Shown: one piece after another, positions 2-39,970 of the stretch | Layout: the number at the start of each line of letters is the position of its first letter | How positions within the stretch are numbered: position 1 is the first letter of the stretch | Program-made: the position numbers and the translations under genes | Notes under the pieces: generated by a model | The model's database searches: none | Seen by the model: only the letters and a program-made list of their open reading frames with translations | Told to the model about the DNA's origin: nothing | Source: a virus | Virus record (IMG/VR): IMGVR_UViG_3300046011_010535 | Span: 1 to 41,223 of that record | Length of the DNA: 41,223 nt | Reading direction: 5' to 3' (one strand)

Positions 2-130
2 TTAATAGAAATTTGTGGACATTATAATTTTATGTCTGATGTAATATTAGATTTTAAAAATAAAAATAAAGATTTTGATGTTAAATGCAAAGAAGAAATT
101 GTAAATTATATTAAGGAAAAATTTTTATGA
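2..130 (+). CDS. 3' end of an unknown protein (partial)
   Basis: An open frame enters from the left edge and ends at a TGA that overlaps the ATG of the next gene (ATGA), giving the last 42 residues of a protein. The visible part is lysine- and aspartate-rich with no motif I recognise. The four-base stop/start overlap shows translational coupling to the HAD phosphatase gene that follows, so it probably belongs to the same glycan-related operon. The function cannot be stated because the N-terminal part is outside the window. Confidence 0.6.
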   Translation, partial: LIEICGHYNFMSDVILDFKNKNKDFDVKCKEEIVNYIKEKFL

Positions 131-498
131 AAATTATAGCATTTGATATAGATGATGTATTACTTACAAGAAAGAAAGATTATAATTCTAAAAATATAGA
201 AAAATATAAGTTGTGTACTCCTATTGTAAAAAATATTGATTTAATTAATAAATGTTATGAAATGGGATATCATATTAAGTTATATACATCTAGGGGTATG
301 ACATCTCTTAATGGTGATATAAAAAAAATAAACGAAAATATTTTGCCATTAACATTACAATCTTTAGAAAAATATGGTATAAAATATCACGAACTAATAT
401 TTGGCAAAGAGCACTATGACCTATTAATTGATGATAAAGCTCTTAATATAGATAGTGTTAATTCTATTGAAGATATTATTAAATATTTTGGTGAATGA
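127..498 (+). CDS. HAD-superfamily phosphatase, EcbF/BcbF capsule-biosynthesis type
   Basis: A 123-residue small HAD-fold hydrolase. All four HAD motifs are visible: motif I FDIDD with nucleophile D7 and general acid D9, motif II at T54 (YTSRG), the motif III lysine K94 (FGK) and motif IV IDDK with D102/D103. There is no large cap domain. Length and motif wording fit the EcbF/BcbF-type phosphatases encoded in bacterial capsule clusters, which are thought to act on a sugar phosphate or related intermediate; that substrate is family knowledge, not visible here. It starts by ATGA overlap with the gene before and is followed by a glycosyltransferase-like gene, a sugar-nucleotide epimerase/dehydratase and an acyltransferase, which supports a role in glycan metabolism. 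Confidence 0.75.
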   Translation: MKIIAFDIDDVLLTRKKDYNSKNIEKYKLCTPIVKNIDLINKCYEMGYHIKLYTSRGMTSLNGDIKKINENILPLTLQSLEKYGIKYHELIFGKEHYDLLIDDKALNIDSVNSIEDIIKYFGE

Positions 499-499
499 T

Positions 500-1273
500 A
501 TGAATATTCATGTATCGTATAGTGTTTTTGATTCCGAGGAATTGTTGGAAAAATCAATTGAAACTATAAGAGATTCTGTATCTGAAATTACAGTAATTTT
601 TCAAAAAATTTCTCATACTCGTAACACATGTGATCCAAATCTAGAAAGTCTACTTAGAGAACTAAAAGACAAAAAATTAATAGATAATTTAGTTCTTTTT
701 AATCCTCCGCTAAACAAGCATCCAGAAGAAATCGAAAGAATAAAACATAATTTAGGATATGATTTTGCTTTAAGATCAAAATGCGAATATAATATGCAAA
801 ATGCTTGCGATCATTTTTATTTTAAAGATGAATTTTCCAAAGTACAAGAAATTCTTTTAGAATATCCAGTTGATTTAGTTACAGGATATATGCATACTTA
901 TTATAAATCTTCGAGTTATCGTTACGCAGATACAGAAGATTATGTAGTGCCAATTTTAAATAAAGTAAAAAAAGGCAACAAATATGAGATTCTTCCTCCT
1001 GCTCCGCTTGTGATAGACCCAGCGATGAGAATGAAATATGAGAGCTGTTTTTGTCTCCCAAAAGATAAACCAATTATGCATCATTTGCATAGTGTAAGAA
1101 AAGATTTTAGAAAAAAATTAGTTAATTCAGCGGCATCCTATCAGTGGAAAGAAGATATTGATAGGATGGTTGAATGGTATGAAAATTGGACGCCAGATAA
1201 AGATGCATATTTATTTGGAAAATACATAAAGCTTATAAAAACAGATAGATTTAAGGAAGAAATAAAATTTTAA
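500..1273 (+). CDS. Putative glycosyltransferase-like protein (GT-A, family 2-like)
   Basis: 257 residues if translation starts at ATG 500, which has GGTGA six bases upstream and lies one base after the preceding stop. An in-frame ATG at 455 would overlap the HAD gene by 44 bases and adds a hydrophobic leader unlike a real N-terminus, so I reject it. The N-terminus (NIHVSYSVFDSEELLEKSIE) resembles the first beta-alpha unit of GT-A glycosyltransferases. The segment around residues 104-112 (DHFYFKDEF) looks like the acidic metal/nucleotide-sugar motif region of a poorly characterised group of family-2-like enzymes. No canonical DxD is present, so the activity is inferred mainly from context within the glycan gene cluster. 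It could alternatively be a non-catalytic relative. Confidence 0.45.
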   Translation: MNIHVSYSVFDSEELLEKSIETIRDSVSEITVIFQKISHTRNTCDPNLESLLRELKDKKLIDNLVLFNPPLNKHPEEIERIKHNLGYDFALRSKCEYNMQNACDHFYFKDEFSKVQEILLEYPVDLVTGYMHTYYKSSSYRYADTEDYVVPILNKVKKGNKYEILPPAPLVIDPAMRMKYESCFCLPKDKPIMHHLHSVRKDFRKKLVNSAASYQWKEDIDRMVEWYENWTPDKDAYLFGKYIKLIKTDRFKEEIKF

Positions 1274-1286
1274 AATAAGAGGAAAT

Positions 1287-2129
1287 ATGTTAATTTCAGA
1301 TGTTGAAAAAGTTTTAGGTAGAAAAGAATATGTAAATTTAATTAATTTACATAAAAATATTAATTTAAAAAATAAAAAAATCCTAATAACAGGAGCAAAT
1401 GGTAGTATAGGTACTAAACTATGTGAAATATTAAATAATAATAATATTAATTATCTTTCTACGGATATTGAGGGAAATCATAAATATCTCGACGTTACTG
1501 ATTTTAATAGCGTTTTTTGCTGGATGAATAAATATAGACCAGATTTTGTAATAAATTTAGCTGGATTAAAATATGCCCCAAGAGGAGAACATGAAACTTG
1601 GAAAACCATATCTATAAATACAATAGGCACAAAAAATATATTAGATTGCGCGCAATCTGAATGTAGAGTGATACTTGCATCGACTTGTAAATCCTGCAAT
1701 CCAGAAATAGTATATGGAGCCTCTAAATTAATTGCAGAAAGGATGACATTAAATGCTGAAGGTAGCGTAGTAAGATTTTATAATGTTGTAGAAACACAAG
1801 GAAATGTATTCGAAATTTGGGATAATTTAGAAAAAAATAGTCCATTGGAAGTTGTAGAGGAATGTAATAGATATTTTATATCAATTAACGAAGCCGTTGG
1901 GTTAATATTATATTCTTTAGTCAGCCCCCCAGGAAGATTCTGCGTAAATTTACAAAATCTCAGAAACATGAAAGATGTTGCAAATTCTTTATATCCAAAT
2001 AAAGAAAAAATAAAATTACAAAGAAGAAGAGGCGATCGCTTGAATGAGAAATTTATGTCAACAGCAGAAAAAATAGAGAAATATGAATTAGAAGATGAAT
2101 TATGCAGAATAGTTAGCGAACACGATTAG
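1287..2129 (+). CDS. NAD(P)-dependent sugar-nucleotide epimerase/dehydratase (PseB/CapD-like SDR)
   Basis: A 280-residue extended short-chain dehydrogenase. It has the Rossmann nucleotide-binding loop GANGSIG at residues 36-42, an acidic residue after the second strand (STDIEG), a conserved LAGLKYAP segment, and the catalytic pair Y143-x3-K147 (YGASK) preceded by STCKSCNP. That last block and the later VRFYNVV and CNRYFISINEAV segments match the layout of UDP-GlcNAc 4,6-dehydratases/5-epimerases of the PseB/FlaA1/CapD family. It is somewhat short for that family (about 330 residues). It would convert a UDP-amino sugar in the cytoplasm for later transfer to a glycan. RBS AAGAGG precedes ATG 1287 by a few bases. 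The exact substrate is inference. Confidence 0.75.
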   Translation: MLISDVEKVLGRKEYVNLINLHKNINLKNKKILITGANGSIGTKLCEILNNNNINYLSTDIEGNHKYLDVTDFNSVFCWMNKYRPDFVINLAGLKYAPRGEHETWKTISINTIGTKNILDCAQSECRVILASTCKSCNPEIVYGASKLIAERMTLNAEGSVVRFYNVVETQGNVFEIWDNLEKNSPLEVVEECNRYFISINEAVGLILYSLVSPPGRFCVNLQNLRNMKDVANSLYPNKEKIKLQRRRGDRLNEKFMSTAEKIEKYELEDELCRIVSEHD

Positions 2130-2152
2130 TAATTAAAAATAGGAATTATATC

Positions 2153-2788
2153 TTGAATAAAAATAGTAACACAAAGATACATAGTACTGCTATTATAGGT
2201 AATAATGTTGAAATTTCTAGCGGAGTAGAAATAGGTGCGTATAGTATTATTTACGATAATGTTAAAATAGGAAAAAATACTAAAATATATTCGCATTGTG
2301 TAATAGGATCAGACATAGAATACAAAGGACGTACCCCAGCAAATGATGCTGGAGTTATTATAGGCGATAATTGTATTATTAGAGAGTTTGTTACAATTAA
2401 TAATAATATAACGGAACATAAGACAAAAATTGGGAATGGATGTTATATTATGACTAAAAGCCATATCGGCCATGATTCAATCTTGGGAGATAATGTATTA
2501 GTCTGTTCTTCTGCTATTGTAGGAGGACATTCAAAAATTGGAAATTTTTGTTATCTAGGGCTTGGTTCTGTTTTACATCCATTTTCAGAAATAGATGATT
2601 TATCTTTAATTGCGGCGCAAGCTTTTTTTAAAGGAAAATCTCCTAAAGGAATTTTATGGGCTGGAATACCAAGTAGAGCAATTAATATAAATATAGTTGG
2701 TATCGATAGAAACATAGAAGATGAAAATTATAAACAAGAATTATTAAAAAATGCTAAAGAATTTTTGCAAGAGGAGAAATTAAAATGA
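2153..2788 (+). CDS. LpxA-like left-handed beta-helix acyltransferase
   Basis: 211 residues made mostly of hexapeptide repeats ([I/V]-G-x-x-x-x: IIGNNVEI, EIGAYSII, KIGKNTKI, IIGDNCII and so on), which fold as a trimeric left-handed beta helix. The stretch IIGDNCIIREFVTIN and the pair H104/H107 in SHIGHDSILG align by eye with E. coli LpxA, where the second histidine is the catalytic base (H125). The C-terminal helical part is shorter than in LpxA (262 residues). The start is TTG 2153, with AGGA eight bases upstream; no upstream ATG is available in frame. It may acylate a UDP-amino sugar made by the preceding SDR, or be a sugar O/N-acetyltransferase. LpxA itself acts in lipid A synthesis, so a host-surface role is plausible but unproven. 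Confidence 0.7.
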   Translation: MNKNSNTKIHSTAIIGNNVEISSGVEIGAYSIIYDNVKIGKNTKIYSHCVIGSDIEYKGRTPANDAGVIIGDNCIIREFVTINNNITEHKTKIGNGCYIMTKSHIGHDSILGDNVLVCSSAIVGGHSKIGNFCYLGLGSVLHPFSEIDDLSLIAAQAFFKGKSPKGILWAGIPSRAININIVGIDRNIEDENYKQELLKNAKEFLQEEKLK

Positions 2789-3006
2789 GACTAGCACCAC
2801 AAGCACATGCAGCAATTATGATGTGTCTACAAAAATGTATTATGGAAGAAACAGATATTAGACCATTACTTGATGATTTAGATTTTGTTGTTGATGATGA
2901 TCAACCAGAATTTCTATTAGTCACAAATCCACCGGCATTTAAAGTTCCACAAGAACTAGAAGATAAAGTAAAGATGAAAGACGAAGCATTCAATTGGGAG
3001 GAGTAA
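2785..3006 (+). CDS. Small acidic protein of unknown function
   Basis: 73 residues, starting by ATGA overlap with the acyltransferase stop and ending in a TAATG overlap with the zinc-ribbon gene. The first third (residues 1-20) is a probable helix rich in Ala, Met and Cys; the middle is strongly acidic (LLDDLDFVVDDDQPEF). No catalytic or metal-binding motif is visible. Tight coupling on both sides supports it as a real gene. Function unknown. Confidence 0.7.
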   Translation: MRLAPQAHAAIMMCLQKCIMEETDIRPLLDDLDFVVDDDQPEFLLVTNPPAFKVPQELEDKVKMKDEAFNWEE

Positions 3007-3278
3007 TGCCTTCATATCAATATGAGTGTAAATATTGTTTTAAAACCTGGGAAGAAATACACGGCTTTAATGAATCAGCAGTTGAATGTCCTTTCTGCAA
3101 GAATGAGGATATTAAGAAAGTTTATAATTACGTATCTCAGATAACAAAAACTTCAGAAGAAAAAAGCCCGAAGAAAAAAACTGCTAGAATAAGAAATCAT
3201 ATAGAAAATATGAAGAATGAATTTAAAGAACATAAGCAAGAAATAATATCCGAAAGAAAAGAATATAAGGTAGATTAA
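3006..3278 (+). CDS. FmdB-type zinc-ribbon protein
   Basis: A 90-residue protein that begins MPSYQYEC. Two CxxC knuckles, C8/C11 and C28/C31, form a zinc ribbon of the FmdB/Zn-ribbon_8 type, whose members characteristically start MPxYxYxC. The remainder (about residues 48-90) is highly charged and lysine-rich, probably helical or disordered, and could contact nucleic acid. The start is ATG 3006, overlapping the upstream TAA and preceded by a strong GGGAGGAG ribosome site; the in-frame TTG at 2994 lies inside that site and is rejected. Its position two genes ahead of the late sigma factor hints at a regulatory role, but no function is known. Confidence 0.7.
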   Translation: MPSYQYECKYCFKTWEEIHGFNESAVECPFCKNEDIKKVYNYVSQITKTSEEKSPKKKTARIRNHIENMKNEFKEHKQEIISERKEYKVD

Positions 3279-3279
3279 T

Positions 3280-3567
3280 ATGATATATTTATTTTTATTG
3301 TTATGTTTAGCAGTTAATGCTTTTTTTTCCTGGTATACATATAATCTTTTAAAAGATAGAGTAGTTCTTATTGAATTATTCAAGAGCTTTTCTCCAATTA
3401 TTAAAGATTATGAAAAGCATCTAGAATCATTAACAAAAATGGATATGTATTTTGGTGATCCGACTCTAATGAGTCTTGTCGAACACACAAAAGAAGTGAG
3501 TAAAAAACTGGACGAAGTAATGGAATCAGTAGAGGTGGAAGAAGAGAATGAACAAGAACAAGGATAA
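3280..3567 (+). CDS. Small single-pass membrane protein, unknown function
   Basis: 95 residues. Residues 2-20 (IYLFLLLCLAVNAFFSWYT) form one transmembrane helix or uncleaved signal anchor. The rest is charged and predicted helical, ending in an acidic, glutamate-rich tail (EVEEENEQEQG) that overlaps the start of the sigma-factor gene by 20 bases. ATG 3280 has AAGGTAG just upstream. It resembles small inner-membrane phage accessory proteins only in general architecture; no family assignment is possible. Confidence 0.7.
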   Translation: MIYLFLLLCLAVNAFFSWYTYNLLKDRVVLIELFKSFSPIIKDYEKHLESLTKMDMYFGDPTLMSLVEHTKEVSKKLDEVMESVEVEEENEQEQG

Positions 3568-4228
3568 TCATTATTTTACACAAGACCACGAAGATGCAAT
3601 AATTAATTATGCTTTATCGAATGATAAAAATGTAAGGACAAAACTTTACATACAATTTATACAACCAGCATTTAATGAAATGGTAGATAAAATTATATTC
3701 ACTTATAAATTTAATAATTTACCAAATATTGATCAACTTCGTGAAGAATGTAAAATATGGCTAACCACAATTCTCGACAAATATGATACGTCAAAAGGAT
3801 CTAAAGCTTTTTCCTATTATTCTGTTATTACAAAAAATTGGTTTATACAGAACGTAAAAAAGACAAATAAAGAAAAAAGAAGAGAAATATCGATCGAAGA
3901 CGCAGAAAAAGAAATCGATGAAAATGGTGAAAGTGTTCCAAGCGGATACGAAAGTACAAGAGAATATGAGGAATTTTGGATAAATCTTTCCAAAGAAATA
4001 TCAAATTGGGAACAGGCAAATCTAAAAGAGAATGAAAGAAAAGTGTTATCAGCAATTATCCAAATTTTTAATAACATAGAAAATATAGAAATTTTCAATA
4101 AGAAGGCTATTTATTTATATATAAGAGAATTAACTGGGCTAAATACAAAACAAGTTGTAAATGGACTTTCTGGTATAAAAAGTAAATATAAAAATTTTAA
4201 AGGAAATTGGGATAATGGAGAAATTTAA
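3548..4228 (+). CDS. Late-transcription RNA polymerase sigma factor (T4 gp55-like)
   Basis: 226 residues, compared with 185 for T4 gp55. The core segment at about residues 58-100 (NIDQLREECKIWL, then DTSKGSKAFSYYSVITKNWF) matches the reduced sigma region 2 seen in gp55-type late sigma factors of T4-like phages: an acidic helix, the K-x-KAFSY motif and an aromatic/basic tail that would contact core polymerase and melt the promoter. Regions 1 and 4 of housekeeping sigma factors are absent, as in gp55. The protein would redirect host RNA polymerase to late promoters. It overlaps the genes on both sides (20 and 14 bases) and lies directly ahead of the virion gene block, its expected target. Confidence 0.8.
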   Translation: MNKNKDNHYFTQDHEDAIINYALSNDKNVRTKLYIQFIQPAFNEMVDKIIFTYKFNNLPNIDQLREECKIWLTTILDKYDTSKGSKAFSYYSVITKNWFIQNVKKTNKEKRREISIEDAEKEIDENGESVPSGYESTREYEEFWINLSKEISNWEQANLKENERKVLSAIIQIFNNIENIEIFNKKAIYLYIRELTGLNTKQVVNGLSGIKSKYKNFKGNWDNGEI

Positions 4229-14260: not shown

Positions 14261-16051
14261 ATGCCAAAAACAAGACCGCCAATTTCTTATACAAGCAGAG
14301 ATTTTGAATCTATAAAAAAAGAATTAGTTAATTACGTTAAGGTTTATTATCCAGAGACGTATAAAGATTTTAATGATTCTTCTTTTGGGGCTATGATGAT
14401 TGATATGGTAGCTTATACAGGCGATGTCTTATCTTATTATCTTGATTACCAGATGAATGAGACTTTTCTTGAAACTTCTATACAAGAAAACAACGTCTTA
14501 AAGATAGCAAAACAAATGGGTTATAAATTACCTGGCTATCCATCTTCAACCGGCATATGCTCTTTTTATGTAGCTGTACCGGCTCAATCAAATGGTTTCC
14601 AACCAAATTTAGAGCTAGTTCCTATTTTAAAAGAGGGAACTTTATTAACATCTGATTCTGGAGCTACGTTTATTTTGGCAGAAGATGTAGATTTCAATAA
14701 AACAACCTCAGAAATTAAAGTTGGAGACGTTAATACAAATGGAACTCCAACAAACTATATTTATAAGGCTTATGGAAAAGTTATTTCCGGAGAGATAAAG
14801 ACAAAAACATTTAATGTTGGAGATTATGTAAAATACTACTCGCTAGAAATGGGCGATTCAAATATAAGTGAAATTGTATCAATAGCCGATTCAGATGGAA
14901 ACGAATACTACGAAGTAGATTATTTAGCTCAAGATACTGTTTATAAAGCGGTAAAAAATTTCGGCTCGGATTCTGCAACCGTTCCTTTTGTTTTAAAACA
15001 ATTTCAAACTTACAGAAGATTTACTACAGAATTTGATATAAATGGAAATTGTAAAATACAATTTGGCGGTGGATCAGAGGCTGATTTCGTCGAAAGTAAT
15101 TTTATAGATCCCACTTCAGTTGTATTAAATTTTTACGGAAAAAACTACGATTCTGATCTAACATTTGATCCAAATCAAATTGTAAAATCAGAAAAACTAG
15201 GAATCTCTCCTGCTAATACAACACTGACAATCAAATATAGATCTAATCCATCATCTAATTCAAACGTTCCTGCTGGTTCAATAACATCTGTATCTACTCC
15301 CATAGTGGAGTTTAAATCAAATACTTATTCAACAGCACAAGGTTTATCTTTAATTTCCACGTTTGAAGTTGAAAATGAAGACGTAATAGTTGGTTTCGTT
15401 GATGTCCCAACCATAGACGAAGTTAGACTAAGAGCGTTAGGAGCTACTTCTTCGCAAAATAGGGCTGTTACTAAACAAGATTATATAAATTTAATTTATA
15501 GAATGCCTGGAAAGTATGGAGCAGTAAAAAGAGTAAATGTTTTACAAGATCCTGTTTCCATAAAGAAAGATATTAATATTTATATCGTTTCTTCTAATCA
15601 AAATAATGAGTTAACTATTTCTACGGAAGCTCTAAAACGAAATATAAAAAGTTGGATTTCTAACTATAAAATGATTAACGATGTTGTTGATATTTTAGAT
15701 GCAACAATTATTAATATAGGAATAGAGTTTGAAATCGTTGTTGAGCTAAATAAGGACGTTAATTCAGTATTGGCAGAATGTCTTAGCGTGTTAAAAGAAA
15801 AATATACCAAAAAATTCGAGATAGGCGAGCCTTTATATTTAACTGACATCTTTAAGCTTTTAAATAATGTTAAACATGTTGTTGACACAAGAAATGTTAT
15901 GATAACAGAAAAATATGGAGCTGGTTATAGCAACGCTCAATTCTCTGCAAAAGAAAATCTTTCTAAAGATGGAAGATATTTATCAATACCACAAACTCAT
16001 ATTTTTGAAATAAAAGATTTAGATTTAGATATAAGAGGAGTTGCAGTTTAA
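14261..16051 (+). CDS. Baseplate wedge protein, T4 gp6/P2 gpJ-like
   Basis: 596 residues (T4 gp6 has 660). The N-terminus ISYTSRDFESIKKEL and the block DMVAYTGDVLSYYLDYQ / ETFLETS (about residues 43-77) are typical of gp6/baseplate J proteins. The J-type core appears at about 390-430 (EVRLRALGATSSQNRAVTKQ, then MPGKYGAVKRV). gp6 dimers form the inner ring that holds the baseplate wedges together and pairs with gp25, encoded immediately upstream. The ribosome site is TTAGGAG, 7 bases before ATG 14261. The stop overlaps the next ATG, keeping the operon closed. Confidence 0.88.
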   Translation: MPKTRPPISYTSRDFESIKKELVNYVKVYYPETYKDFNDSSFGAMMIDMVAYTGDVLSYYLDYQMNETFLETSIQENNVLKIAKQMGYKLPGYPSSTGICSFYVAVPAQSNGFQPNLELVPILKEGTLLTSDSGATFILAEDVDFNKTTSEIKVGDVNTNGTPTNYIYKAYGKVISGEIKTKTFNVGDYVKYYSLEMGDSNISEIVSIADSDGNEYYEVDYLAQDTVYKAVKNFGSDSATVPFVLKQFQTYRRFTTEFDINGNCKIQFGGGSEADFVESNFIDPTSVVLNFYGKNYDSDLTFDPNQIVKSEKLGISPANTTLTIKYRSNPSSNSNVPAGSITSVSTPIVEFKSNTYSTAQGLSLISTFEVENEDVIVGFVDVPTIDEVRLRALGATSSQNRAVTKQDYINLIYRMPGKYGAVKRVNVLQDPVSIKKDINIYIVSSNQNNELTISTEALKRNIKSWISNYKMINDVVDILDATIINIGIEFEIVVELNKDVNSVLAECLSVLKEKYTKKFEIGEPLYLTDIFKLLNNVKHVVDTRNVMITEKYGAGYSNAQFSAKENLSKDGRYLSIPQTHIFEIKDLDLDIRGVAV

Positions 16052-31805: not shown

Positions 31806-32807
31806 ATGAGTTATAAATTTTTTAATGAGAACGATATTCAATCAGCTAAAGAAGTTTTGTCAGAATTTATTCCTATAACTGGAACAATTGTTTCTGGAAC
31901 TTATGGAACATGGCCAAATGATACAAACATAAAAAAATTTCCTGCTGGAACTTTTCAATCGGTTTATGATTATCCTTATTTAAGCTCATCAGCTAATCAT
32001 ATTTTTGATATTGCTGTTGGAGTTAAAAGCGGTAGCTATACTGTATATGAAGAAGTACTTTCTAAATTTGGAATGTATAATTTAATGGCCCAAACTTTAT
32101 TAGGGTTTGATGTAACTGGAAATCTTAAAAACTTTACTGTTAACACATCTTCTACTGTTATTAGTAGCGCAATTTTTATTCCTCTATCAAGGCTTCTTAC
32201 AAAAGATGAAGTTAAAGCTAACGGAACTTTTAGCTTAACTTTAGGAACTTCATCATTTACTACGCCGCTAGCTGGAACAAGAACTCTAACAGACACTGGT
32301 GTATCAACTAACACAATTTATGCAGATTCCCCAGCTGGAGAATATTATTACTTAACATCTGGCAGTACGACATACGGAACTTTGTTTTATCAAGCAGGAA
32401 TTGTCGTGCTCAATGCTGATACCATTAATACTACAGACTGGATATCTTCGAGCTCAGGAACTGGATCAACAAATCTTGGATTTACATATGCTTCTGTTGA
32501 CCAAATTTGTGATTCGTTCAGAAGATTGGTTGTTAATTTACAATTTAATAATAATACTCAACTATACTCTACGGTTTATAATTGTAGAATAGATGCTAAC
32601 GAATTCAACTTCAGCTCCAATCCTACTTATTTAAGTGGAAGCAAAATTAGAGTTAAGAATACTCCAACTGATAAAAATTATTCATATATAACGACCGTTG
32701 GGCTGTATTCAGATACAGATGAATTGTTGGCTACTGCAAAATTAAGTGAACCTCTAAGAAATACTGATGCTGTTAATTATACATTATCTGTTAGATTAGA
32801 TTATTAA
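31806..32807 (+). CDS. Virion protein with conserved C-terminal LYxxxxELLAxAKLxxPL module
   Basis: 333 residues, Ser/Thr/Gly-rich and beta-structured. The C-terminal 100 residues contain YNCRIDANEFNFSSNPTYLS and later VGLYSDTDELLATAKLSEPL, ending NYTLSVRLDY. Both blocks recur in the next protein, and similar NEFNxSxNP / KLxxPL sequences are known from structural proteins of large T4-like phages. GGAG lies about 8 bases before ATG 31806. The pair probably arose by duplication of a fibre or baseplate-appendage protein. Exact role unknown. Confidence 0.55.
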   Translation: MSYKFFNENDIQSAKEVLSEFIPITGTIVSGTYGTWPNDTNIKKFPAGTFQSVYDYPYLSSSANHIFDIAVGVKSGSYTVYEEVLSKFGMYNLMAQTLLGFDVTGNLKNFTVNTSSTVISSAIFIPLSRLLTKDEVKANGTFSLTLGTSSFTTPLAGTRTLTDTGVSTNTIYADSPAGEYYYLTSGSTTYGTLFYQAGIVVLNADTINTTDWISSSSGTGSTNLGFTYASVDQICDSFRRLVVNLQFNNNTQLYSTVYNCRIDANEFNFSSNPTYLSGSKIRVKNTPTDKNYSYITTVGLYSDTDELLATAKLSEPLRNTDAVNYTLSVRLDY

Positions 32808-32808
32808 A

Positions 32809-34107
32809 ATGAAAAAATTTGAAAAAAATGATTTATTCTATAACACAATAGTAGGTAATCCATCGTATAAAATTGTTTTATACAATGGCAATTTAACAGT
32901 TAATGATCAGATAAGTGAAGGAAATAGACTAAGCTCCTCTGTAACCTTTTTAGAAAACAACTTTAATTATACTTGCTCTGTTACAGAAGAATTTACAAAA
33001 AGTAATGTATTTTTAGATTATGAATTTTCTGGCACTCTTTCATACAATCCAACAATAAAAAGGAATTATATAAGAAAAGCTGGAAACACTTTTGACTATT
33101 TATATACAGAATATTTAACTCTTAAAAAAATTTTAGCACTAAGAAATGTATTTCCAAAATATAATTTAGAAAATACCAACTTAAAGATAAGCGAGTACTT
33201 AGAGGATGATGGAGTCCCTCAGTATAAATCTAAAGTTTTTTTAAATCCTCTATCTGCAAATAACTACCAATACTACATTAGACCTAAAAAAGATATAAAT
33301 TTAATAGAAATTCCACAAGCATTTTATGGAAATAAAATACAACCAGGAACTTTAAATTTAAAAATTTATGTAACTGGAACTCTTGTAGCTGAAGCATCTG
33401 ATAAATATAAAGATACAAAAATAATCCAAACTTCTTCATCGTTTAATCCTTCTCTTATTAATGCAGAAATAGGATCAATTCTTTACGATGAGGGAATAAT
33501 AATATTAACAGGAAGTGCTCAACTAGCTTCAGTTAGTGAAAGATATATACAGCCAGTATCTTCCTCTGCTTTCAATGTAAATTTTTCTAACGCTCCAATG
33601 TCCGATAACTTAAGATGGGTTCATTTTGGTTCTCATAAAGTTACAACAACTAATGCCTTATTTAATACCCCTATTGTTTCTGCTTCATTTGAAATAAATT
33701 TTCAAGGATCAAATCAAGTTAATACTCTTACAATGTTTTGTACTGCTGATAAAAACGATTTTACTTGGAGCAACAACAGAACTTTTATCAGCGGAGGCCA
33801 ATCAGATAAGTTGTTGCTAGGACAAACTTCTTCTATAACTGTTAATGGTACAACTCATACTGCTTCTTCAAATGCTTTATTTATTCCATCTGACGGAAAA
33901 TATTATGAGAATGATAAAATTGTTGTTAAGAATGCTATTTCCAGTTCTTTTTCTAACTATGAATCAAAATATAATCCACAAGTTTATATAAGTGAAATAG
34001 CCATCTATAATGAAGAAGGAGAAATGATAGGAATAGCAAAATTAGCAAACCCTCTTCGAAAGACAAAGGATACTGACTATACAATTAAATTAAAATTAGA
34101 TATTTAA
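32809..34107 (+). CDS. Virion protein, C-terminal paralogue of the preceding gene product
   Basis: 432 residues. The C-terminus repeats the module of the preceding protein: FCTADKNDFTWSNNRTFIS, then IAIYNEEGEMIGIAKLANPL and DTDYTIKLKLDI. The N-terminal 250 residues are different (Asn/Tyr-rich, with GNKIQPGTLNLKIYV at about 170 and a region of beta character). It starts one base after the previous stop with no clear ribosome site, so it probably depends on coupling to the upstream gene. It is the last gene of the virion block; the next gene begins the DNA-metabolism cassette. Likely a fibre or appendage protein. Confidence 0.55.
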   Translation: MKKFEKNDLFYNTIVGNPSYKIVLYNGNLTVNDQISEGNRLSSSVTFLENNFNYTCSVTEEFTKSNVFLDYEFSGTLSYNPTIKRNYIRKAGNTFDYLYTEYLTLKKILALRNVFPKYNLENTNLKISEYLEDDGVPQYKSKVFLNPLSANNYQYYIRPKKDINLIEIPQAFYGNKIQPGTLNLKIYVTGTLVAEASDKYKDTKIIQTSSSFNPSLINAEIGSILYDEGIIILTGSAQLASVSERYIQPVSSSAFNVNFSNAPMSDNLRWVHFGSHKVTTTNALFNTPIVSASFEINFQGSNQVNTLTMFCTADKNDFTWSNNRTFISGGQSDKLLLGQTSSITVNGTTHTASSNALFIPSDGKYYENDKIVVKNAISSSFSNYESKYNPQVYISEIAIYNEEGEMIGIAKLANPLRKTKDTDYTIKLKLDI

Positions 34108-34146: not shown

Positions 34147-34671
34147 ATGATTTTAGGCATTGACGTATCAACAACAACTACAGCATTTACGATTTTAGAC
34201 GAAGAGGGTAAAATAGTCTCTTGCGAAGCTGTTCGTCTTGAAAAGGTAAAAGATTTATTCGTAAAATCTGCAAATATTAAGAAGTATGTTGAAGAGCTCG
34301 ATAAAAAATATAATATTAAAGCAGTATACATAGAAGAACCTTTGATGTCTTTCTCAAAGGGGATGTCCTCTGCAAAAACTATTTCAACCCTTATGAGATT
34401 TAATGGTATTGTTTCATGGATTTGTTATGATATAATAGGTCTTATACCTCAATTTATCTCGGCAGCAACAGCAAGAAAATCATATGGTGTTAAAATTGAG
34501 AAGGGAAGAAAAGCAAAAGAAGTCGTATTTGAGCGAGTACTTGACAAAGAACCTGATTTTAAGGTAGAATTGACCGCCCACGGAAATCCAGCCCCAGGAT
34601 CTATGGATAGAAGTGACAGTTTTATTATTGCCAAAGCAGGTTATTTACAATGGAGATCTCTGAAAAGCTAA
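34147..34671 (+). CDS. RuvC-fold Holliday-junction resolvase / endonuclease
   Basis: 174 residues, the normal size for RuvC (about 170). The acidic RNase H-fold tetrad is visible: D6 in LGIDVSTTTTAF, E63 in VYIEEP, and D154 and D157 in MDRSDSF near the end. RuvC-type enzymes cut four-way DNA junctions symmetrically; in phages this resolves recombination and replication intermediates before packaging, the job done by the unrelated gp49 in T4. No Shine-Dalgarno sequence is found before ATG 34147, and the predicted transcript start coincides with it. The gene ends overlapping the primase gene by 22 bases, and a recombination nuclease follows, consistent with one DNA-processing operon. Confidence 0.8.
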   Translation: MILGIDVSTTTTAFTILDEEGKIVSCEAVRLEKVKDLFVKSANIKKYVEELDKKYNIKAVYIEEPLMSFSKGMSSAKTISTLMRFNGIVSWICYDIIGLIPQFISAATARKSYGVKIEKGRKAKEVVFERVLDKEPDFKVELTAHGNPAPGSMDRSDSFIIAKAGYLQWRSLKS

Positions 34672-35588
34672 ATATTATAAGCTCTTTTCTTGGCGAATAT
34701 CATAAAGTTGGAAATGAATATATTTACCATTGTCCATTTTGTGATCACAGAAAAAAGAAATTATCAATAAATTTTGAAAAAGGAAAATTCAAGTGTTGGG
34801 TATGCGATTCTCGCGGCAACCTAAGAAAGCTTGTGAGGAAGAAAGCCACGTTTGAATTGTTCCAGAAATGGAAACAGATAGACGGAGAAGTTGATTTAAA
34901 TACAAATCTTGATGATTTGTTCTCAGAAACAGAACAGGCAACAGAAGAAATAGTTTCTTTGCCAGACGGTTTTACAACACTAACTTCTATTTCTAATCCA
35001 ATATCTTTTAAAAAATATTCTAATTACCTGAAAAAGAGAGGAATAACTCCTCAAGACACTCTTTATTGGAAGATCGGATTCTGCTCAGAAGGAGAATACA
35101 AAGATCGTGTGATTATCCCTTCTTTTAATACAGAAGGAGACTTAAATTTCTTTGTGGGAAGAACTGTTGTTGGTGATAAATTCAGCAAATTCAAACAGCC
35201 ACAAGTCTCTAAGGATATTATATTTAATGAGCTATATATTGATTTTGATAGCGACATTGTACTTGTGGAAGGAATATTTGATGCAATTAAAGCCGGAAAT
35301 AATGCGATCCCATTACTTGGCTCGACTTTAAGAGAAGAGAGTAAATTATTTCAAAAAATAGTCAGTTATGATTCTACTGTTTATACAGCACTGGATCCAG
35401 ATGCAAGTAAAAAAGAAAATGATATTATAAGAAAGTTAATAAACTACGATATTGAAGTTTATAAGGTAGATATCCTGCCATATAAAGATGCTGGTGTAAT
35501 GACGAAAGAAGAATTTCAGAAAAGAAAATCTTGTGCCAGATTAATGAATTACGATACAATACTACAACAAGAATTAGGAGCAATATGA
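34650..35588 (+). CDS. DNA primase (DnaG/T4 gp61-type)
   Basis: 312 residues (T4 gp61 has 342). An N-terminal CHC2-like zinc ribbon uses C28/C31 (CPFC) and C49/C52 (CWVC). A Toprim domain follows, with catalytic E207 in LVEGIFDAIKAG and the DxD pair D249/D251 in ALDPDA. Between them is the primase core, with DRVIIPSFNTEGDLNFFVGR (about 150-170), a stretch typical of DnaG-type proteins. It would synthesise RNA primers for lagging-strand replication together with a helicase encoded elsewhere. It starts inside the end of the resolvase gene (22-base overlap) and its TGA overlaps the ATG of the Mre11-Rad50 gene. Confidence 0.85.
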   Translation: MEISEKLNIISSFLGEYHKVGNEYIYHCPFCDHRKKKLSINFEKGKFKCWVCDSRGNLRKLVRKKATFELFQKWKQIDGEVDLNTNLDDLFSETEQATEEIVSLPDGFTTLTSISNPISFKKYSNYLKKRGITPQDTLYWKIGFCSEGEYKDRVIIPSFNTEGDLNFFVGRTVVGDKFSKFKQPQVSKDIIFNELYIDFDSDIVLVEGIFDAIKAGNNAIPLLGSTLREESKLFQKIVSYDSTVYTALDPDASKKENDIIRKLINYDIEVYKVDILPYKDAGVMTKEEFQKRKSCARLMNYDTILQQELGAI

Positions 35589-38500
35589 AAATAAGCCACC
35601 TAGGTGACATACACATTAAAAATTTAAAACATCATGGTGTTTACGAAAACGTCTTTGAACAAATGTATAATACTCTTGAGAAAGAGAAAGTTAATAAGAT
35701 TATAATTTGCGGAGATATTGCTCACACGAAAACAAACATTTCACCAGAGTTTGTTCAAGTTGCAAGCAGGTTTTTTACAAATCTAGCAGATATTGCTCCT
35801 CTTTACATTATTCTCGGCAATCATGATGGTAATCTAAAAAACTTAGATCGTCAGGACGCTATTACTCCAATCGTAGAGGCATTAAACAACCCAGACATTC
35901 ATCTATTAAAGAACTCTGGTGAACATCACATAAACGATAATTTTTGTCTCAATGTTCTCTCAATCTTTGATAGAGATAATTGGATAAAACCAACAGATCC
36001 AAACAAGATTAATATTGCTCTTTACCACGGAGCAATTCAAGGAGCCAAGACTGATCTAGGATGGGCGATGAAAAACACCGATGATGACTTGTCGATCTTT
36101 GATGACTTTGATTATGGTCTTCTTGGGGATATTCATAAACAACAATTTCTGACTGATAAAGTTGCTTATTGTGGGTCTCTAGTTCAGCAGAATTTTGGAG
36201 AAGACGTAGATAAGGGAATTTTAATTTGGGATATTGAAAGTAAAGATAAATGGAGCGTAAAGCCGATTTGTTTTAATAACCCAAATCCATTCATAACAAT
36301 AGAACTTGATAAAATAAATGGAAAAATATACGCTCCAGATAATTCCCATGTTCGATTAATTTTAGATAAATATTACTCAAAAGACGAAGTACAAAAAATT
36401 CAGGACGATATTAACAATAGATGTAAGCCAAAATCCATTGTTATAGTCAATAAGCACGCAAAAGAAGTTGAAAATGAGATTGAAGATGTAGACAAAACAA
36501 AGTTAAATCTACGAGACAACAACGTTCAGCAAGAACTAATTCGAGAATTCCTTGCATCCGAGAATCTTACTGAAGAGCAAATACAAGATGTGCTGGAGAT
36601 TAACACTAAATTTAATCTCGATTCCGAAGTAGCCGATGGAGTTGCAAGAGATGTAAAGTGGAGCCTTCAGAAGTTTGAGTGGGATAACCTCTTTAATTAT
36701 AAAGAAGGTAATAAGATAGATTTCAGCGAGATGTCTGGAATCGTTGGCGTCTTTGGTAAAAACTATTCTGGCAAATCTAGCATTATTGACGGCTTGCTTT
36801 ATACTTTATTTAATTCAACTTCAAAGAAGATTCGTAAAAATTTTGACATTGTTAATGAAAGAAAGACGCTTGGTAAAGGCTCTGTTGAAATTTGTTTAGG
36901 CAAAGATAATTTATATATTTTCAGAGAAACAGAAAAGAACGTTAAGAAATCAAAAGGCAAGCTAGTTGAGGAAGGTAAGACCACTGTTGAGGCTGAATTA
37001 TCTGGCGATCCATTAAATGGTAATGATAGAAATGAGACAGATAAAAACATTCGCAAAGAGATTGGAACTATTGAAGATTTCTGTAATACTTCATTATCAA
37101 CCCAGCATGGTTCATTAGATTTTATCAACGAAGGTTCGACAAGAAGAAAAGAAATTCTTGCTAACTTTTTGGATCTACAAATCTTTGAAAACAAACATAA
37201 GCCAGCAAATCAATATGCCAATGAATTAAAAACAATAATTAAGAAGTCCGAGAAGGATTACTCAAAAATCCTTGGAGATATTCACGCTAAACATCATCTA
37301 GCAATTAATAAATTAGCGGAAACTAACAATACTGTAAATTTATCAAAAGCAGAACTTGAAAATATCCAAGACAAAATTAACAAGTTAAACGTTGATTTAT
37401 CTAAGGTTGAAGAGCCAATTGACATAGAGAAGGCATGGATAATTCATGGCGAACTTAATTCACAACTATTCTTGACAACTTCTGGTATAGAAAAAAAGAA
37501 CGAAGAGATAAAGACGCACGAAGAAACAGTCGAGAAGATTAAGCAAGTTGTAGAAAAACTTAATATTAGCGAACTTAAAGAAAAACAAGAAGTTTCCAAG
37601 AAGGTTTTGAAAGAAATTGATGCTTTAATCTATGAGAAAAAGATTAAAACTAATCATCTTTCGATCTATAAAGGATCTGCAAAACTATTAGATGTCGCCG
37701 CCTGCGGTAAAGACCAATATAAAGAGTGCCATTTTAAGAAGAGCGCACTAGATTCTTTAGAAGAAATCTCAGTCGTAGAGATGGCTTTAAAGGCGCTAGA
37801 GGAGCAAGAAGCAAAACTACGCGGAGATCTATTAAAGCTAGACATTGATAAGGTTAATGAATATATAGACAAATATACAAAGTTAAATATAAAATCTTTT
37901 GAGTCGGAGAAGAAAACCTCAACTCTTCTTAAAGAAGTAATTGCTCTTCAAAATACTAAATCTGAAGTTGAATCTGAACTTGTTGAAAATGAAAAAATTA
38001 TTAATCGTTATGAGTCTAATAAGGATCTTTATAACAATATTAATGAACTAAAAAGTGAAAGAGACAATCTCACTAAGAAGAAAAACTTTAGTGCAGAATG
38101 TCTTAAGAATGATGAAGAAGAGAATAAGAAAGCAATTGTAAATCTTGCAACATTAGAAAATCAGATTGATAACTATGAAGCAGAGATAGAGGCATTGAAT
38201 AAACTAAAGAAAGAATATTCGTCTTATGAATTGTTTTTAAAATGTACTCATAACAGCGGAATACCTTTTGAACTTATCAAGAGAACACTTCCTGTGATTA
38301 ACGAAGAGATTAATACTCTATTATCAAATATTGTGGAGTTTGAGGCATACTTTGCAAATGAAGATGGGAAACTAGAGATTTATATTCAGCATCCAAATGC
38401 AAGCCCAAGAGCGGTTGAAAACTGTTCTGGTGCTGAGAAGTCATTGGTTGCTATGGCTATCAGATTGGCTTTGATTAAATGTGGAAGCCTGCCTGTAAGT

Positions 38501-38695
38501 GATGTATTTATTCTTGATGAACCTGCCACTTCTCTTGATGCAGAACACTTAGAAAGTTTTATTAAAGTATTGGAGATGATTAAGACGCAGTTTAAGCTTG
38601 TTTTATTAATTACCCATCTTGATACCCTAAAAGATTCAGTTGATAAAATTATTGAAATTCAAAAAGATTCAGAGGGATTTGCTTACATCAATTAA
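35585..38695 (+). CDS. Fused Mre11-Rad50 (SbcD-SbcC; T4 gp47-gp46) recombination nuclease/ATPase
   Basis: 1036 residues in one uninterrupted frame, joining two proteins that are usually separate. Residues 1 to about 340 are the Mre11/SbcD/gp47 phosphodiesterase: D8/H10 (GDIH), D44/H47 (GDIAH), N79/H80/D81 (GNHD), H148 and H184 (GDIHK). Residues from about 370 are the Rad50/SbcC/gp46 ATPase: Walker A GKNYSGKSS (391-399), long coiled coils with C707-x7-C715 at the apex (a spaced form of the CxxC zinc hook), ABC signature SGAEK (948), Walker B LDEP with D978/E979, and H-loop H1011. The complex resects DNA ends for recombination-dependent replication. The start is ATG 35585 (ATGA overlap, GGAG 5 bases upstream); in-frame ATG 35531 lies inside the primase gene and is rejected. 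Confidence 0.9.
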   Translation: MKISHLGDIHIKNLKHHGVYENVFEQMYNTLEKEKVNKIIICGDIAHTKTNISPEFVQVASRFFTNLADIAPLYIILGNHDGNLKNLDRQDAITPIVEALNNPDIHLLKNSGEHHINDNFCLNVLSIFDRDNWIKPTDPNKINIALYHGAIQGAKTDLGWAMKNTDDDLSIFDDFDYGLLGDIHKQQFLTDKVAYCGSLVQQNFGEDVDKGILIWDIESKDKWSVKPICFNNPNPFITIELDKINGKIYAPDNSHVRLILDKYYSKDEVQKIQDDINNRCKPKSIVIVNKHAKEVENEIEDVDKTKLNLRDNNVQQELIREFLASENLTEEQIQDVLEINTKFNLDSEVADGVARDVKWSLQKFEWDNLFNYKEGNKIDFSEMSGIVGVFGKNYSGKSSIIDGLLYTLFNSTSKKIRKNFDIVNERKTLGKGSVEICLGKDNLYIFRETEKNVKKSKGKLVEEGKTTVEAELSGDPLNGNDRNETDKNIRKEIGTIEDFCNTSLSTQHGSLDFINEGSTRRKEILANFLDLQIFENKHKPANQYANELKTIIKKSEKDYSKILGDIHAKHHLAINKLAETNNTVNLSKAELENIQDKINKLNVDLSKVEEPIDIEKAWIIHGELNSQLFLTTSGIEKKNEEIKTHEETVEKIKQVVEKLNISELKEKQEVSKKVLKEIDALIYEKKIKTNHLSIYKGSAKLLDVAACGKDQYKECHFKKSALDSLEEISVVEMALKALEEQEAKLRGDLLKLDIDKVNEYIDKYTKLNIKSFESEKKTSTLLKEVIALQNTKSEVESELVENEKIINRYESNKDLYNNINELKSERDNLTKKKNFSAECLKNDEEENKKAIVNLATLENQIDNYEAEIEALNKLKKEYSSYELFLKCTHNSGIPFELIKRTLPVINEEINTLLSNIVEFEAYFANEDGKLEIYIQHPNASPRAVENCSGAEKSLVAMAIRLALIKCGSLPVSDVFILDEPATSLDAEHLESFIKVLEMIKTQFKLVLLITHLDTLKDSVDKIIEIQKDSEGFAYIN

Positions 38696-39399: not shown

Positions 39400-39970
39400 C
39401 GAGGTACAGAATGATATATACCAAATTGTCCGTGGAATTAGTCAAGCTGTATCTACAGCTTATGATGGCCCAACCTACAGCGAAGATAATGACAACAAAA
39501 TTGGACTTAAAAGAGAAGAAGGAAATCCATTGGTCGATAAAAGGATAATGGATGGGTTTGGAGTCAAAGTAGGCGGAAGAACTTTAACAATTAATTATCA
39601 CACAGAAATTCCTCTTCAATACATCCATAAAATGGGAGCTGCTAAATATGAGGATGAAGTTGAAGAAATGATTGAAAAATGTTTATCATTTATCAAGAAA
39701 AGATTTAAAGCAGTTACTGGAAAAACTATTGCGGTAAAAGAGCAGAAGAAAGAATTAAAAAACGGCAAGAAAGTAAAGAACTTCGATGTTTTAATTCAGC
39801 CAATATCTCGCTTTAGAACTTCCGTAACAGCTCATAAATGTTATGATTTAACAGGTATTCCAGAAGCAGAGAAATACACAAGCAGCATTATTGCTGACTA
39901 TGAGAAGTATCATAAATCTTTATTTAAGAACAAGAAGAAAGCAGAAGAAGCTCCAAAAAGAGTAGCATGA
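39380..39970 (+). CDS. Conserved-looking protein of unknown function upstream of terminase
   Basis: 196 residues. It has an N-terminal helical stretch (NDIYQIVRGISQAVSTAY), then an alpha/beta core (GFGVKVGGRTLTINYHTEIP; MIEKCLSFIKKRFKAVTGK) and a lysine-rich C-terminus that is probably disordered. AAGG lies several bases before ATG 39380, inside the upstream gene, and the stop makes an ATGA with the terminase start. It could be a virion or packaging-associated protein; neither a small terminase coiled coil nor a helix-turn-helix is visible. Function unknown. Confidence 0.55.
   Translation: MSEILNNEVQNDIYQIVRGISQAVSTAYDGPTYSEDNDNKIGLKREEGNPLVDKRIMDGFGVKVGGRTLTINYHTEIPLQYIHKMGAAKYEDEVEEMIEKCLSFIKKRFKAVTGKTIAVKEQKKELKNGKKVKNFDVLIQPISRFRTSVTAHKCYDLTGIPEAEKYTSSIIADYEKYHKSLFKNKKKAEEAPKRVA

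Follow-up and report, generated by a model that had tools for sequence, protein, structure and literature searches.

The IMG/VR virus record IMGVR_UViG_3300046011_010535, analysed here over its full length of 41,223 bases (30% GC) and called the window, carries at its left end a cassette of four sugar-related genes. These encode a HAD-superfamily phosphatase, a GT-A fold glycosyltransferase (open reading frame (ORF) 2), a short-chain dehydrogenase/reductase (SDR) and an LpxA-like acyltransferase. Comparison with related records places the cassette at the distal end of a hypervariable sugar island, which occupies a fixed site in a clade of T4-like phages. Two of its four genes, those for the LpxA-like protein and the glycosyltransferase, recur jointly in unrelated phages. 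We give an even chance to the account as a whole, in which the island is refilled with sugar genes, an acylated, probably 3-amino, sugar is made, and a cytoplasmic virion component is most likely decorated with it.

The original prediction, made from the sequence of the window alone, had described four consecutive, co-oriented genes carried by a phage, and this description was borne out. The four ORFs fill positions 127-2788 on the + strand with tight spacing, and the T4-like phage genes downstream include those for a baseplate wedge (at 14261), a primase (at 34650) and a terminase (at 39967). A bacterial chromosomal context, and with it a bacterial origin of the cassette, was ruled out by the phage genes found on both sides of the site in the relatives. 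Among named phages, Microcystis phage Mel-JY01 and Flavobacterium phage immuto have the closest terminases (42-43% identity), and the window phage is a member of an uncultured T4-like clade. The left end of the window holds the following features (aa, amino acids):

2-127, + strand: 3' end (42 aa) of a cut-off gene, an open frame whose stop overlaps the HAD start
127-498, + strand: HAD-superfamily phosphatase, EcbF/BcbF-like (phrog_1238)
500-1273, + strand: GT-A fold glycosyltransferase (ORF 2), ATG start at 500, DxDE changed to AxDH
1287-2129, + strand: PseB/FlaA1-like extended SDR, STDK changed to STCK
2153-2788, + strand: LpxA-like left-handed beta-helix acyltransferase, TTG start, short at both ends
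2785-3006, + strand: small conserved anchor gene, right border of the island
2994-3278, + strand: FmdB-like zinc-ribbon protein, conserved flank (Zn_ribbon_8, E 6e-8, just under the Pfam cut-off)
3548-4228, + strand: gp55-like late sigma factor homolog, conserved flank and anchor

Three earlier readings were corrected: the glycosyltransferase starts with the ATG at 500, its metal motif is AxDH and not DxDE, and the SDR motif is STCK and not STDK. The contig starts inside the operon, where the 42-aa gene end reaches the HAD start. This fragment had no relative at E<0.1 among the collected loci, and no leftward extension of the window was found through an exact 44-base match. Only the right border of the island is seen here. 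The GC content of the cassette (0.271) lies inside the range of the window (0.256-0.351).

A fixed site with variable content

Counts out of 80 loci are based on the best 80 of 119 relatives of the late sigma factor homolog, which is therefore present in the 80 loci by selection; terminase relatives have the genes to the right of the cassette in common with them. The late sigma homolog of the window is 33% identical to a protein of locus L297 with a phrog_234 late sigma match (E 6.6e-6). The right flank is conserved across the 80 loci, with the anchor gene in 74, the w3280 gene in 69, the FmdB-like gene in 41 and the w4215 gene in 80. Left of the anchor, gene content differs in each close relative. 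Reading of L055 gave cupin, radical SAM and methyltransferase-like ORFs at this place; Pfam detected one MptE-like protein in the island of L056, and NeuB, MptE-like, GT10 and GT11 proteins in that of L057 (G005), which has a NeuA-like gene too. Nonulosonic acid and fucose on one glycan are possible for the L057 phage.

Upstream ORFs of at least 100 aa numbered 699 (629 after dereplication), and the 699 fell into 232 single-linkage families, 144 of them singletons. At least one of eight sugar-gene seeds matched in 64 of 72 loci. Pfam searches with a random 150 of the 629 island ORFs found Epimerase (25), GDP_Man_Dehyd (23), CTP_transf_3 (5), DegT (4) and GT10 (4).

The left border is marked by a PhoH/PIN gene in 39 of 53 records and by a GT4 gene in 45 of 53, the distance between the two being 1,564-3,285 bases (39 records). 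In each of the 45 records with both GT4 and sigma genes, the two share a strand, with GT4 8,503-25,503 bases upstream of sigma (median 18,135). GT4 is absent from eight of the 53 records; some of them break off within the region, and others may be genuinely without it. Island GC was below downstream GC in 57 of 64 loci.

Two claims of the original prediction did not hold up. What had been taken for a near-complete small pathway is an island truncated by the window, since it spans 8.5-25.5 kb from GT4 to sigma in the relatives. Nor is such a set of genes unusual: sugar islands are normal for this clade and are also known from other T4-like phages. In Flavobacterium phage immuto (NC_055915), the cluster at 48-60 kb opens with the same PDDEXK-GT4-GT4 block (28-33% identical), but about 18 kb of mostly small genes separate it from the late-sigma homolog.

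The LpxA-like acyltransferase

The LpxA-like ORF matched the LpxA model with E 7e-41. Both conserved histidines of the original prediction, H104 and H107, are present and the pair is kept in 81 of 81 bacterial LpxA sequences; the catalytic D108 of the HxxHD motif and the further H126 and H142 (GGH, LHPF) are kept as well. Active-site residues are preserved in only part of the cassette: the catalytic motif of this enzyme is intact, whereas the dehydratase Asp of the SDR and the metal motif of the glycosyltransferase are altered.

LpxA being its best family model and 21 of the 31 positions that are at least 90% conserved across the 81 bacterial sequences being kept, including the catalytic His-Asp pair, the enzyme might act on lipid A precursors as bacterial LpxA does. 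It shares with bacterial LpxA the beta-helix, the His-His-Asp motif and 27-38% identity, but is shorter, scores under the family cut-offs and is not part of an lpx operon. The two NCBIfam LpxA equivalogs gave 140.1 bits (cut-off 226) and 135.9 bits (cut-off 231.05). Ten conserved positions are lost, among them the Q of HQF and the C-terminal F, and with 211 aa, versus at least 252 aa in the 81 bacterial sequences, one coil and the C-terminal part are absent. Scans with patterns derived from bacterial LpxA found bacterial relatives that were, among the matches listed, mostly of lpx-operon type (27-38% identity), with fabZ or lpxD nearby in 68 of 80; neither lpxD, fabZ nor lpxB adjoins the gene in the window. 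Taken with the neighbours of its phage relatives, these differences make an action on lipid A very improbable.

The nearest relative found (46%) comes from a sugar cluster in L297, with PDDEXK and GT4 genes and a late-sigma homolog as neighbours; the cluster contains DegT, Gfo/Idh and a UDP-glucose-dehydrogenase type protein. In L298 (35%), DegT and Gfo/Idh genes immediately follow the LpxA-like gene. In bacteria, a set of DegT, Gfo/Idh and UDP-sugar dehydrogenase enzymes produces 3-amino sugars, which are then N-acylated by a hexapeptide enzyme (WbpA/B/E/D; GnnA/GnnB/LpxA). Because the relatives at 46% and 35% adjoin DegT and Gfo/Idh genes, the comparison favours N-acylation of a 3-amino sugar over an action on lipid A. 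The neighbours of 3-N-acetyltransferases of the WbpD/WlbB/FdtC type (DegT, Gfo/Idh, UDP-sugar dehydrogenase) are like those of these relatives; the window protein differs in being LpxA-type by profile, and the upstream neighbours of the window are cut off.

Several matches were excluded as phage relatives. The hits in Acinetobacter phage MD-2021a and Pseudomonas phage Y1 belong to bacterial lpxD-fabZ-lpxA loci, and that in the faecal record MT835680 has bacterial lpxA surroundings. LpxA matches in G007-G009 (28%) had internal stops, lay beside tail-fibre-like genes and were dropped. The phage-filed records CAKLQH020000012, OQ572403 and MT835680 carry lpxA with lpxD, fabZ or lpxB and appear to be host sequence.

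The phosphatase and the SDR

The HAD ORF matched phrog_1238 (E 3.9e-23), and the PDB chain closest to it belongs to a capsule biosynthesis protein (E 4.2e-15); with 38.5 bits it did not reach the cut-off of the EcbF/BcbF NCBIfam model (162). Homologs were found in 23 of the 80 loci, and the match in L297 lies within a 622-aa ORF that also has a nucleotidyltransferase domain. PHROGs and many phage records label phrog_1238 a phosphoheptose isomerase, yet it matches HAD phosphatase models.

The SDR passed the Pfam gathering score for Polysacc_synt_2 (E 1.8e-31; 109.9 bits, gathering score 20.2), fell far short of the PseB equivalog (78.1 bits, cut-off 407.75) and has the UDP-GlcNAc C6 dehydratase 2gn4 as closest solved structure. 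It shares the fold, the cofactor motif and the active-site Lys and Tyr with PseB/FlaA1 and CapD SDRs. The alignment showed an intact nucleotide-binding motif and YxxxK; the Asp of STDK, present in four aligned PDB chains and in both island ORFs with the motif, is a Cys in the window SDR. This Asp is the catalytic dehydratase acid of PseB-type SDRs. Since GDP-fucose synthase has a Cys at the same place and uses it in epimerisation, the window SDR is as likely an epimerase or reductase as a dehydratase.

A phage family of glycosyltransferases

ORF 2 gave no match passing the cut-off in Pfam, PHROGs, NCBIfam or PDB. Ordinary searches detected no relative in phages, the 80 loci, 50 whole records or genome contigs, a single match with E 4 in plasmids, and nothing with family models built from the islands. 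Scans of viral contigs with single cassette proteins likewise yielded almost nothing until alignments or motifs served as query. A degenerate pattern for the motif MHHx[ST]xVRKD matched 69 viral contigs, with the motif in 65 ORFs and a best phmmer E of 1.1e-54, and 53 distinct family members of at least 180 aa were aligned. Three members that were checked had no Pfam match past the cut-off and no PHROG match below E 0.28. Through L248 the family was traced to named carriers, 15 Prevotella Lak megaphage records (H88-H102), at about 30% identity.

An AlphaFold2 model of ORF 2, with 51 members and the window protein as alignment, reached a pLDDT of 93.5 and a pTM of 0.90, versus a pLDDT of 39.8 without alignment. 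The top PDB match in Foldseek was SpsA (E 3.3e-7), and VIA gave ThuS (Z 14.6; 188 residues, rmsd 4.0), WrtF (14.0) and SpsA (13.5). By its model, ORF 2 is a GT-A fold glycosyltransferase. The fold is common to SpsA, SunS/ThuS and WrtF (Z 12.5-14.6), but identity is 10-16% and ORF 2 is without the DxD. Compared with its family, it shows DxDE changed to AxDH, KRN to KHN and DPTR to DPAM; the first Asp of DxD, lost in ORF 2, is present in 51 of the 53 other members.

The member in L250 (9146-10489) is part of a longer ORF inside an island with a PhoH/PIN, PDDEXK, GT4, GT4 block, and adjoins ORFs that read as RmlC/RmlD/RmlB-like.

Joint recurrence of the two genes

Among the 69 contigs found through the glycosyltransferase motif alone, three (L254, L281 and L282) carry an LpxA-like gene (33-38% identical). 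These are the contigs whose glycosyltransferase reads ATDH, and those of L281 and L282 are identical. A scan with an LpxA-like alignment gave 29 loci; in 23 of the 29, a share that overstates independence as the scan was seeded with two paired members, the glycosyltransferase gene directly follows, with ATDH in all 23 and a 4-base overlap in 17. The other six (L297-L300, L320 and L324) are without this partner. In L254 the pair sits between the head protease and portal genes; in the window, the SDR gene separates the two.

The window glycosyltransferase is 40% identical to that of L248, which has DxDE, versus 29-30% to the ATDH set. The best tree placed it among DxDE rows and needs two motif changes, so that the change may have arisen more than once, each time with an LpxA partner; a single origin was not rejected (p-AU 0.362, from a quick tree with a long window branch). 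We tentatively raise, as a rather speculative idea, that the LpxA-like enzyme and the AxDH GT-A enzyme might form a two-gene module that places an acylated sugar onto virion proteins, by donor chemistry that departs from the usual metal-bound nucleotide sugar.

The island is unlikely to be filler, or DNA in passage, whose genes are decaying. Filler has been put forward for cyanophage lipopolysaccharide (LPS) clusters, in the part of PMC3037559 available, and the motif losses in the glycosyltransferase and the SDR as well as the lower island GC would agree with it. However, the four cassette ORFs are intact and tightly spaced, the borders are fixed across 45 records, and the AxDH change is found repeatedly with an LpxA partner, which is not the pattern of random decay.

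Proposed function and acceptor

Gene content, site, variability, folds, motif changes and the recurrent LpxA-glycosyltransferase pairing are shown by the data above, whereas substrates, order of steps and acceptor we infer as follows. The clade keeps the island between the PhoH/PIN gene and the late-sigma and baseplate genes and would refill it with different sugar genes. The HAD enzyme would remove a phosphate at an earlier step, and off-contig genes together with the SDR would provide a nucleotide-activated, probably 3-amino, sugar. The LpxA-like enzyme would add an acyl or acetyl group to the activated sugar, which the GT-A enzyme and other island enzymes would transfer, most likely to a phage virion component made in the cytoplasm. 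An acylated amino sugar, the product named in the original prediction, stays the best reading.

Simple hydropathy found at least three membrane segments in 0 of 629 island ORFs. The counts were 20 of 601 for phage ORFs downstream (Fisher p 5e-7) and 49 of 789 for ORFs around bacterial lpxA genes (p 3e-13), with the reservation that ORFs are not independent. With no multi-pass membrane protein apparent in the island, no flippase or polymerase was seen among the 629. An island free of such proteins fits a cytoplasmic acceptor, e.g. a virion protein. The place of the L254 pair, between head protease and portal genes, also speaks for a virion target. MptE-like proteins were found in the islands of G005 and G009; Maf members of this family glycosylate flagellin. 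According to work cited in the available part of PMC11256854, the virions of mycobacteriophages Che8 and Rita are glycosylated.

The island could instead remodel a host surface glycan (O-antigen, capsule) during infection and exclude other phages, its sugars feeding the host export machinery. PseF-, GMD-, GDP-fucose-synthase- and HldE-type island enzymes are typical for surface sugars, and the authors of the pelagimyophage survey prefer this explanation for similar genes, as far as the available part of PMC7029224 goes. We consider it possible, though doubtful: no flippase, polymerase or membrane acyltransferase look-alike occurs among the island ORFs, and the island adjoins late-sigma and baseplate genes, hence is probably expressed late. 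Virion decoration is favoured over a change of the host surface.

A modification of phage DNA is very improbable. Deoxy-, nonulosonic- and fucose-type sugars are not known to occur in phage DNA, which counts against it, and no modified-base gene was recognised in the window; in its favour, other kinds of phage glycosyltransferases do modify DNA (PMC7029224, in part).

Several observations weigh against virion decoration with an acylated 3-amino sugar from a refilled island. LPS glycosyltransferases are cytoplasmic too, and host flippases could export the product; MptE-like proteins occur in 2 of 72 islands only. The window itself has no DegT or Gfo/Idh gene. With the glycosyltransferase metal motif and the SDR acid altered, one or both enzymes may be inactive or perform other chemistry. 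The 23 paired loci, from the scan seeded as described, come down to nine distinct LpxA sequences at 90% identity. Mel-JY01 and LR756508, phages outside the clade, have no sugar genes at the island site.

Other features of the window

The ORF at 35531-38695 (1054 aa) combines a calcineurin-like phosphoesterase with an AAA_23/SMC domain, i.e. SbcD-SbcC or gp47-gp46 as a single chain. At 31806-34107, two adjacent ORFs seem to have a C-terminal region in common with each other's counterparts in L048-L050; duplicated fibre tips are possible. A late promoter search with TATAAATA found 9 occurrences per strand and no signal.

Relation to known clusters

The island belongs with the sugar clusters known from marine T4-like phages. 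In the parts of the sources available, PMC3037559 describes LPS gene clusters in cyanophages P-SSM2, S-SSM7 and S-SM2, and PMC7029224 a hypervariable pelagimyophage region with glycosyltransferases, which holds 63 of 162 LPS-related proteins and for which a change of the O-chain is suggested. The cyanophage clusters are also large and T4-like, with that of P-SSM2 near phoH too; they are named for three genomes, whereas here one site is found in most records tested. The pelagimyophage host recognition cluster is likewise hypervariable and T4-like, with glycosyltransferase and deoxy-sugar genes near tail/baseplate genes, but it is mixed with tail-fibre genes and stems from another clade, whereas here the PhoH/PIN-GT4 and late-sigma anchors set the bounds. 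No report of a phage LpxA was found in the literature searched; the available part of PMC12837969 names lpxA in a gene table and does not speak of it as a phage gene. New, as far as the literature searched goes, are the bounded site in the clade, the glycosyltransferase family and the LpxA-glycosyltransferase pairing with its changed motif.

Descriptions of sugar clusters in marine T4-like phages go back to about 2010 (PMC3037559), where the part available leaves their purpose, working or filler, open. The present clade offers a single bounded site for comparison among dozens of records, and its cultured relative immuto, which grows on Flavobacterium sp. LMO8, has a homologous left block. The clade also adds a phage glycosyltransferase family unmatched by Pfam and PHROGs, as judged from the three members tried, and the compact LpxA-glycosyltransferase pair is testable by itself.

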